A stretch of 24,226 nt of DNA. Source: a virus. The stretch spans positions 1 through 24,226 of the IMG/VR virus record IMGVR_UViG_3300037264_007074, one strand, 5' to 3'. Position 1 is the stretch's first letter; every line of letters begins with the position of its first letter. This document shows, one piece after another, positions 12,963 through 15,298 of the stretch. A model generated the notes under the pieces. The model worked only from the letters and a program-made list of their open reading frames with translations, had not been told where the DNA came from and did not search any database. A program made the translations under genes and the position numbers.

Positions 12963-13469
12963 TCAGTGTTTATTGACTCTGTGATACTTTAATTCACGAA
13001 ATATCCCACCATGTTCCATCTTTGAACCAATTTCAGTATCATCCTTTATTTCAAATATATAAATATAATCTGTACCTTTTAAGTCTTTTATAAAATTATT
13101 GGCAATAGAAGCTGCTAGTTCCGAGTCTTTCTTTCTTTGTTCATTATAAAATATTATTTGAATTGAATTATCGCTATTAAATTGTTCTTGACTTATTTTG
13201 TGTCTTTCCATAAATTGTTTTTTATAGTCTGTATAGCTAATTTTTTCTTTAATATATCCTTGTGAAATTTCTGTCGTTATTTTTTCTAATAGTTTTCTCT
13301 TTTTTATTGTTAGAGGAATTTGTGTTGTAGCATTTCCAAAAAGTAGTTTAGCATGGTCCGTATTCTTAATAAATTGTTTTACATCATCAAATGTTTTTAT
13401 TTTGAATGGCCACACAACAATAAAAGAAGAAGAGCTAGAGTTTGTTACAAAGTCAAATTTTAACTTCAC
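12963..13469 (-). CDS. protein with N-terminal DFVTNSSSSSFIV motif
   Basis: This 168-residue protein opens MKLKFDFVTNSSSSSFIVVW. From memory, the FVTNSSSSSFI opening is found at the N-terminus of many otherwise unrelated proteins of Firmicutes and their phages and has no function known to me; it looks like a recognition or leader-type motif. The rest is charged and mixed alpha/beta (for example KKRKLLEKITTEI, then YKKQFMERHKISQEQF, then TDYIYIFEIKDDTEIGSKME) with no recognised domain. The start is GTG 13469, supported by AAAGGA nine bases upstream. It overlaps the preceding small membrane gene by 17 nt and is the last gene of an operon led by a radical SAM enzyme, making it a candidate substrate or partner of that enzyme; this is inference. 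Confidence 0.7.
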   Translation of the reverse strand: MKLKFDFVTNSSSSSFIVVWPFKIKTFDDVKQFIKNTDHAKLLFGNATTQIPLTIKKRKLLEKITTEISQGYIKEKISYTDYKKQFMERHKISQEQFNSDNSIQIIFYNEQRKKDSELAASIANNFIKDLKGTDYIYIFEIKDDTEIGSKMEHGGIFRELKYHRVNKH

Positions 13470-13677
13470 TTTTAGTTGTCCTTTCTTTAATATATAATAC
13501 TTTAAAAAACAGAGCTAGCAATATAAGCACTGCCCCGCATCCTTTATAAAAATCGCTATAAAAATCTTTAACACAGTATGCGAAAATATAGAACTCAATT
13601 GCAGCTGCAAGTAATATTATAAAAAGTGATAAATTAACTGGAATCCACAAATTAAGGAAGTCAAGGAGTTTTTTCAA
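13453..13677 (-). CDS. small two-helix membrane protein
   Basis: This 74-residue protein has two predicted membrane helices, near residues 11-36 (WIPVNLSLFIILLAAAIEFY and following) and 47-62 (CGAVLILLALFFKVLY), with a short polar loop and a basic tail (KERTTKSEVKI), so both ends are probably cytoplasmic. The frame has no internal ATG. The start appears to be TTG 13677, preceded by AGGGGGG seven bases upstream. It overlaps both neighbours by 17 nt, fitting a tightly coupled operon. No family is recognised. In this operon it could anchor, export or position the other products at the membrane; this is context only. Confidence 0.55.
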   Translation of the reverse strand: MKKLLDFLNLWIPVNLSLFIILLAAAIEFYIFAYCVKDFYSDFYKGCGAVLILLALFFKVLYIKERTTKSEVKI

Positions 13678-14281
13678 GAGTTAGCCCCCCTAATGATTTG
13701 TCAAAAGTATATTGTTCTTTTTCGATAGTAAAGGATGTTTTAGAATACTCGTCTACTACTCTATTAATTGCTAATTTGCAAAAATTTATAATAATAAAAT
13801 TCATCGTTCTAACTTCTTGATCCCCTATATAATTACTTCTTTCAAGCTCCCATTCCTCACAGAAGCTATCATATACATCATCTGAATGAGATCTACGAAG
13901 TGGGTTATCAACAGTTTTGACTACCAATTTTAACTCATTGAGAATATGAAGAAAATATCCACAAACTCTCGGATTAATATTCGGATTATTCATTAAACAA
14001 AATACTGGGCTTTCTCTTACGGCTATTGCAATTGTATTTAAATTTTTTAAATCAATAGCGGTAAACTTAAAAATTCCTGCTTGTTCGCGCATATTTAAAT
14101 GACTTTTAATATCAAAGTTGTCTGGAATAAAAACATATTCTAACATAGTATAAATACCTGATGGTCGATCATTACCTGGTCTTATAAATTTCCTAGTACT
14201 AGAATCCGAGAGGGCATTTGTTTGGGGTAGCTGTAAGGATTTCCCTGAACCTTTTAAACGGTTTCGAATTTTTCCAAACAT
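13661..14281 (-). CDS. unknown protein of the radical SAM operon
   Basis: This 206-residue reading starts at ATG 14281 (MFGKIRNRLKGSGKS), chosen because AAAGGA lies nine bases upstream. The open frame reaches further, to 14332, without a better site. With this start it overlaps the radical SAM gene by 83 nt, unusually long; a later ATG at 14146 (MLEYVFIPDNF) would remove the overlap but has only a weak AGG. The protein begins basic, has hydrophobic segments typical of a folded soluble domain (TIAIAVRESPVFCLMNN, then VCGYFLHILNELKLVVKTV), and a helical C-terminus (MNFIIINFCKLAINRVVDEY). No motif identifies it. Position suggests a partner protein of the radical SAM enzyme. Confidence 0.6.
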   Translation of the reverse strand: MFGKIRNRLKGSGKSLQLPQTNALSDSSTRKFIRPGNDRPSGIYTMLEYVFIPDNFDIKSHLNMREQAGIFKFTAIDLKNLNTIAIAVRESPVFCLMNNPNINPRVCGYFLHILNELKLVVKTVDNPLRRSHSDDVYDSFCEEWELERSNYIGDQEVRTMNFIIINFCKLAINRVVDEYSKTSFTIEKEQYTFDKSLGGLTLEKTP

Positions 14282-15239
14282 CTTCAATTGTCCTTTCATG
14301 TAGGGATACACTCCAAGTTTCTTTATCAGCAAAACTGCAAGGCATTAGTTTCATATCTGGAGTTATATATGCAGACATTCTAGCAGCTTCGCACGTATCT
14401 ATACACATAGCCTGTAAAGGAGTTTTAGGTTCTGTATACCCGGTAACATAATTTACTAGACAACTATCCATTCCAACTTTAAATTCACATTGTGGTTCAA
14501 ACACTCGTTCTGAAAATGAGATCATTTGAAGTTTTGTTGGGGTTAATTCTGGAAATAATTTACTAGCACCTTGTGGTTTAAATAATAAAAAAACTACTGC
14601 ATTTAATTTAGAGAGATCAAACCATCCCTCTATATTTTTTTGATATTTACGAGTTTTCCATGGATTATAACCCCAAAGAATTCTTATGCATCTGTTATAG
14701 GTTTCTTGAGAAAAGACTAAATGTATATTGGTTTTGATATTGGCATCCATAAGGTTGTTAATGGCTTTATAGGTAAATTTTTGGTTATAATCACTTACAG
14801 CTACGGCACCACAGTTTTTTGAAATATCAATTTGGTCGGAGGTCAAATTTATACCACTAGTTGTATAGTTTGGGACAACCTTATTTATAGCGGCGTGTTT
14901 TATAATTTGTTTGAAATATGGATGATGATTTGGGTCTCCTCTGCCTCCTAATGCTACCTGATTTGTATGACCTTTTACTTCATCAATAATTCTTTTAAAA
15001 TCCTGGAGTTTCATATGCTCTTCTTTTCCATGACCTTGGTAACAAATTCGGCATTTGTTTTTGCACTCGCCCATAATTCCAATATCTAATAGTGAAGGAA
15101 GTTCTAACCAAAATGGATCTGGCTTTCCATTTATTCCTCTCAATAGTTCAACTCCAGTTTTAGTGTTAAAAAATAACTCATAAGAATCATTTGAAAATTT
15201 CTTATTAAACTTTAATCTCATTACAACTTTCTTTTCCAT
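14199..15239 (-). CDS. radical SAM enzyme with SPASM/twitch-like C-terminal cysteines
   Basis: This 346-residue protein carries the radical SAM cluster motif C-x3-C-x2-C at C59, C63 and C66 (GECKNKCRICYQG), which binds a 4Fe-4S cluster that cleaves S-adenosylmethionine to a radical. GGRGDP at 98-103 takes the place of the usual GGE SAM-binding motif. C-terminal cysteines at 251, 260, 279, 283, 301 and 342 (CIDTCEAARM, DMKLMPCSFAD, NKCPLGF) fit a SPASM or twitch domain holding auxiliary clusters, typical of peptide- and protein-modifying members. The start is ATG 15239 behind AAAAGGAGAT. It heads a four-gene minus-strand operon with a candidate promoter 43 nt upstream. The substrate is unknown; a protein with an FVTNSSSSSFIV N-terminus is encoded in the same operon. 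Iron-sulfur radical chemistry suggests a host growing with little oxygen. Confidence 0.85.
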   Translation of the reverse strand: MEKKVVMRLKFNKKFSNDSYELFFNTKTGVELLRGINGKPDPFWLELPSLLDIGIMGECKNKCRICYQGHGKEEHMKLQDFKRIIDEVKGHTNQVALGGRGDPNHHPYFKQIIKHAAINKVVPNYTTSGINLTSDQIDISKNCGAVAVSDYNQKFTYKAINNLMDANIKTNIHLVFSQETYNRCIRILWGYNPWKTRKYQKNIEGWFDLSKLNAVVFLLFKPQGASKLFPELTPTKLQMISFSERVFEPQCEFKVGMDSCLVNYVTGYTEPKTPLQAMCIDTCEAARMSAYITPDMKLMPCSFADKETWSVSLHERTIEDVWKNSKPFKRFREILTATPNKCPLGF

Positions 15240-15282
15240 TTCTATCTCCTTTTAAGAAAAAAATATAAGTAGAAAGTATCAT

Positions 15283-15298
15283 TTATTAATATATATAG
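15283..15298 (-). promoter_or_regulatory. candidate minus-strand promoter of the radical SAM operon
   Basis: TTATTAATATATATAG on the plus strand, identical over 16 bases to the elements at 8759 and 10074 but diverging in the next bases (TTTATT). It lies 43 nt upstream of ATG 15239 on the minus strand, in the same relative place as the other two. Confidence 0.5.

Follow-up and report, generated by a model that had tools for sequence, protein, structure and literature searches.

The closest described relatives of the enzyme considered here are SuiB and SkfB, radical SAM/SPASM maturases of RiPPs, which combine a radical SAM barrel with a C-terminal auxiliary cluster and act on one short precursor. 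anSME belongs to the same superfamily and modifies Ser or Cys of a folded protein at CxPxR-type motifs inside sulfatases. Short common N-termini on unrelated small phage proteins are known as well: T4-like phages carry arrays of unrelated small proteins with only an N-terminal targeting sequence in common, and the capsid-targeting sequence of T4 internal proteins includes a Glu for cleavage and has no partner enzyme. The phage locus described here shares traits with each of these. Its enzyme has the barrel and the C-terminal cluster of SuiB and SkfB, and would likewise read a conserved N-terminal sequence, here called the head, on the product of a neighbouring gene. Unlike a single short precursor, the putative substrates are mostly folded proteins of 90–210 aa (median 134 aa) from about 140 families. 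Together with a folded structural model and the absence of a conserved protease or exporter, this sets them apart from RiPP precursors, which are defined by a short leader and core accompanied by a protease or exporter. Also in contrast to SuiB and SkfB, only a short N-terminal strand region lies before the barrel. The head is N-terminal instead of internal, and its consensus contains neither the anSME acceptor motif (C/S-x-P/A-x-R) nor any other known radical SAM acceptor motif. From the T4 signal it differs in sequence, in having no conserved Glu at positions 1–22 and in having a partner enzyme. Enzyme and head protein of the locus fall into separate PHROG families, phrog_7293 and phrog_7397, neither of which is functionally annotated.

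The window, by which we mean the whole stretch of DNA that was analysed, comprises one entire IMG/VR record (24,226 bases) and represents a fragment of a phage with a contractile tail (sheath, T4-type baseplate protein). A preliminary description had noted four minus-strand ORFs next to the sheath gene and had listed the cysteines of the enzyme, and it was accurate on both points (Table 1).

Table 1. Features of the minus-strand cluster and its flanks in the window.
Feature	Position	Strand	Remarks
Sheath gene	10950-12905	+	flanks four-ORF minus-strand cluster
Head (tag) protein, 168 aa	12963-13469	-	GTG start; body family phrog_7397; invariant D143, E152-H153, C-terminal H168
N-terminal head MKLKFDFVTNSSSSSFIV, codons 1-18 of head protein	13416-13469	-	
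74-aa hydrophobic protein, probably two-helix membrane protein, accessory	13453-13677	-	TTG start
206-aa protein, accessory	13661-14281	-	ATG start at 14281; present in close relative L002
Radical SAM/Twitch (SPASM-like) enzyme, 346 aa	14199-15239	-	C59-x3-C63-x2-C66; invariant C260, C283, C301, C342
Tail/virion protein gene	15501-16220	+	other flank of minus-strand cluster

The idea of a four-gene system held for enzyme and head protein, which form a conserved pair; the 206-aa and 74-aa genes lie outside the conserved core. The 206-aa protein, of which a 223-aa ORF version starts at an upstream TTG, is not conserved elsewhere alongside the pair. Within the close clade of the window the head gene is part of the enzyme's operon at four loci (the window, L005, L007 and L009), and no head gene was found in the operon within the short contigs of L002, L003, L004, L006 and L008. 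An AAGGA-type ribosome site precedes the start codon of the window head protein, which matches its PHROG family over the full length (E 1.4e-8, protein residues 1–166) and with a pI of 9.3 is an exception among the mostly acidic head bodies. A search of PDB and BFVD gave no fold match for its body. Three features are invariant in the bodies of this family, namely a D, an EH (mostly EHG) and the His at the very end; they may represent a metal or active site. A hit of the window protein to PF16347 SGSH_C (E 8e-6) was under the curated cut-off and was taken as chance.

The enzyme belongs to the radical SAM superfamily according to Pfam (Radical_SAM PF04055, E 9e-8) and to the barrel of its AF2 model (pLDDT 92.9), and it also matches SPASM (PF13186, E 1e-4). 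Besides the three cysteines of the radical SAM loop it has six C-terminal ones (251, 260, 279, 283, 301 and 342), four of which are invariant across the family. Since four suffice for one auxiliary cluster, Twitch-like is a better name for the enzyme than SPASM, which would imply two clusters. The best structural matches of the model were SuiB (Z 25.5) and SkfB (Z 24.1), followed by PqqE and anSME (Z 19.8). The SuiB and SkfB alignments cover residues 6 or 11 to 346; about 45 residues lie before the barrel, and no conserved RRE domain was found. In a simple regular expression count the cysteine spacing of the radical SAM loop differed within the family, with CX3CX2C in the window, CX6CX2C, CX7CX2C in Straboviridae, and CX7CX6C in e.g. 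L300.

Proteins carrying the head form a class of their own. The suspicion that the Ser-rich N-terminal motif recurs on unrelated proteins was borne out by 570 distinct proteins with the 16-residue consensus M-K-x-R/K-x-G/D-F-V-S/T-N-S-S-S/T-S/T/C-S-F/Y and two hydrophobic residues behind it, where the invariance of N10, S11 and S12 is partly by construction, these residues being fixed in the search pattern. Their bodies fall into 140 BLAST clusters, 94 of them singletons. F is located exactly at residue 7 in 287 of an initial set of 293 head ORFs, and a record can hold up to 10 heads, on a single strand everywhere except in G035. A degenerate DNA pattern for FV[ST]NSSSSSF occurred in 76 viral stretches, as compared to one for a scrambled pattern of similar composition; another degenerate scan found 35 viral stretches, and the reversed-pattern control gave 0 throughout. 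As the scrambled pattern yielded too few records, a random 14-mer was used for the control search. Scanning bacterial and archaeal genomes (257 Gb) gave 18 stretches, several of them by chance, and tblastn with the 25-aa head gave no matches, probably owing to the low-complexity filter. The bodies are soluble proteins, most of them acidic (median pI of 4.5, 84% below 5; in an earlier set 4.53 vs 6.39 for neighbouring genes). A likely membrane segment is present in 2 of the 570 proteins, which leaves the suggested action at the host membrane unsupported. The model of the head protein (pLDDT 91.5) shows flexibility for residues 1–10 and strand 1 from residue 13 onwards, suggesting that the head is accessible. 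Where a residue of the Ser run is substituted, Thr or Cys is the usual replacement, which would fit a reacting side chain without proving it. K4 heads, the type of the window, are rare (27/570) and come mostly from records with an enzyme of the window clade or with no assigned enzyme.

The head class is coupled to the enzyme family. Starting from the tag, a profile of the window enzyme (E<1e-50) had matches in 39 of 50 viral records that carry heads and measure 50 kb or more, in 7 of 10 further ones with a variant head and in 0 of 40 head-less records; the Fisher p of about 3e-16 is overstated because of the relatedness of the records. Loci that were head-less by the strict regular expression had SSSTSF or SSSCSF variants and were therefore moved to the head-bearing set. 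Starting from the enzyme and blind to the tag, we found a head gene within 8 kb in 120 of 135 viral enzyme loci vs 0 of 121 random viral loci, the latter being shorter on average (1.06 Mb in total vs 2.08 Mb); like all co-occurrence counts these are inflated by shared ancestry, the loci not being phylogenetically independent. A lack of co-occurrence between motif and radical SAM genes would have spoken against the preliminary description, and the opposite was observed. Eight of the 15 enzyme loci devoid of a recognisable head are short or cut. All 463 heads are co-directional with the enzyme, and the median distance to the nearest one is about 0.5 kb. Gene maps of 40 neighbourhoods place head genes close to the enzyme in 38 cases, mostly immediately downstream of it. 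No family other than the enzyme is conserved around heads: the enzyme is there in all 40, the runner-up in 4, and a search for other conserved partners (transporter, exporter, protease, kinase) around heads found none. Another of the 15 loci counted as head-less, L422, has a head gene a short way upstream of the enzyme (position 7591) that appears to be frameshifted past MKIRNGFVSN.

Cultivated phages showed the same coupling. Enzyme and exactly two heads were present in all eight of EcRAM-01, phi5, Lw1, RB43, Matisse, Rpl1, UPEC03 and PMBT1, and both were absent from all six of T4, RB49, RB69, KVP40, GAP32 and Aeh1. The N-termini of the phi5 head proteins are MKIRSGFVSNSSSSSFIV and MKIRSGFVSNSSSSSFII. 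In Straboviridae both heads are located about 20 kb from the enzyme gene. Because the enzyme is carried by cultivated E. coli and Klebsiella phages (RB43, Lw1, RB16, KP15, Matisse and PMBT1), its proposed relation to the head is directly testable.

Head variants are matched to enzyme clades. In every one of the 136 loci with several heads, all heads agree at residue 9, which is either S or T throughout (on shuffling, a mean of 23 and a maximum of 33), and both head types occur with 11 body families. One reader for each genome best accounts for such uniformity within a genome over unrelated bodies. Selection acts on the head at the protein level: Ser codon identity within a locus is only 22–40% across unrelated bodies, with AGY/TCN switches. 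In the viral enzyme tree a single change over the 123 labelled rows (77 S, 46 T) separates S9 from T9, and it falls on the deepest branch (support 100); two changes are seen when bacterial rows including plasmid systems are added. Common descent explains part of the match between residue 9 and enzyme clade, and the single-change map could be plain co-inheritance.

We propose that enzyme and head make up a two-part modification system: the enzyme would read the head and introduce a radical-based covalent change there, a reading to which we assign a probability of about 0.72. The radical SAM enzyme with its auxiliary iron-sulfur cluster would recognise the fixed head on several unrelated proteins of the same genome, most likely through residues 2–10, and the change would be placed in or beside the N-S-S-S-S-S run (N10–S15). 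From the fold (SuiB, SkfB, PqqE, anSME) and the family we infer that the head serves as substrate, with either a side chain or the backbone being modified. On a more speculative note, the mostly acidic soluble bodies might serve host takeover or counter-defence and require the modification for function or stability.

A different role for the head would be that of a docking handle, by which each body brings the shared enzyme to a target of its own (host protein, DNA or RNA), the target being what is modified. The pairing of one enzyme and one docking sequence with a multitude of unrelated bodies would agree with such an arrangement, clade-matched head variants point to recognition rather than chemistry, and the mostly acidic bodies look like binding or mimic proteins. 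However, a Ser run that accepts mostly Thr or Cys resembles a reaction site more than a docking site, and the closest enzymes of solved structure work on peptide substrates of their own, so that we consider docking unlikely. Quite improbable in our view is a targeting signal that directs proteins to a compartment (capsid or phage nucleus) with the enzyme as a mere neighbour. The T4-like arrays are a precedent, yet the head has no conserved Glu cleavage site, T4, RB69 and RB49 lack heads, and targeting would leave unexplained why the enzyme is the only conserved neighbour, why residue 9 follows the clade and why heads lie beside the enzyme on bacterial chromosomes and plasmids. Conserved 5' ends could finally reflect a shared translation or RNA element or freshly copied DNA, as the fixed distance of the heads from the start codon might indicate; since codons of the same locus differ at most positions while the residues are identical, and residue 9 tracks the genome across unrelated bodies, we give practically no weight to an origin at the nucleotide level.

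If the enzyme modifies the head, this would amount to a genome-wide phage post-translational tagging code with one enzyme marking many unrelated proteins, and would provide a first functional handle on >100 unannotated phage protein families. The presence of the enzyme together with shared-tag proteins in many phages and few bacteria suggests an undescribed system, and we found no account of it in Pfam, NCBIfam, PADLOC or the literature, the latter covered incompletely and without preprints.

The motif had been expected near radical SAM genes in phages and Firmicutes; phages indeed proved to be its main home, whereas a concentration in Firmicutes was not seen. On alphaproteobacterial plasmids a head lies beside the enzyme in all 7 enzyme-carrying records, of which 4 distinct loci were inspected (L490–L493, on Agrobacterium, Rhodobacter and Rhizobium plasmids). 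The operon there consists of a SMEK/NACHT NTPase, a protein of about 121 aa (unannotated in one), the head protein and the enzyme. The NTPase matches SMEK_N (3e-42), the N-terminus of the PADLOC Aga nuclease (2.5e-49) and Avs2 (1.5e-21), and the operon looks like a candidate bacterial defence system. Its place beside an Avs2-like NTPase suggests that the bacterial pair may take part in phage-host conflict. That one enzyme and tag code serves many unrelated phage accessory proteins and also defence-like bacterial STAND-NTPase operons, and thus both sides of this conflict, is a tentative proposal to which we give slightly less than even odds.

Enzyme and head were also found together on one Desulfobacterales contig with tRNA-modification genes nearby. 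In Clostridia, the class of an Oscillospiraceae genome, 5 of 291 genomes contain the enzyme, all five with an adjacent head gene, two of the heads being slightly divergent (SSSTNF, SSSSSN). At one locus of this class (L499, 6736-12729) genes for MBL-fold, trypsin-like, 730-aa, 142-aa, head and radical SAM proteins are located in one run, and the head protein resembles that of the plasmids. Two other bacterial head proteins (L500, 7058-8491, and L501, 3693-5846) have bodies of 477 and 717 aa, which open with a hydrophobic stretch of small residues, unlike the short acidic phage bodies.
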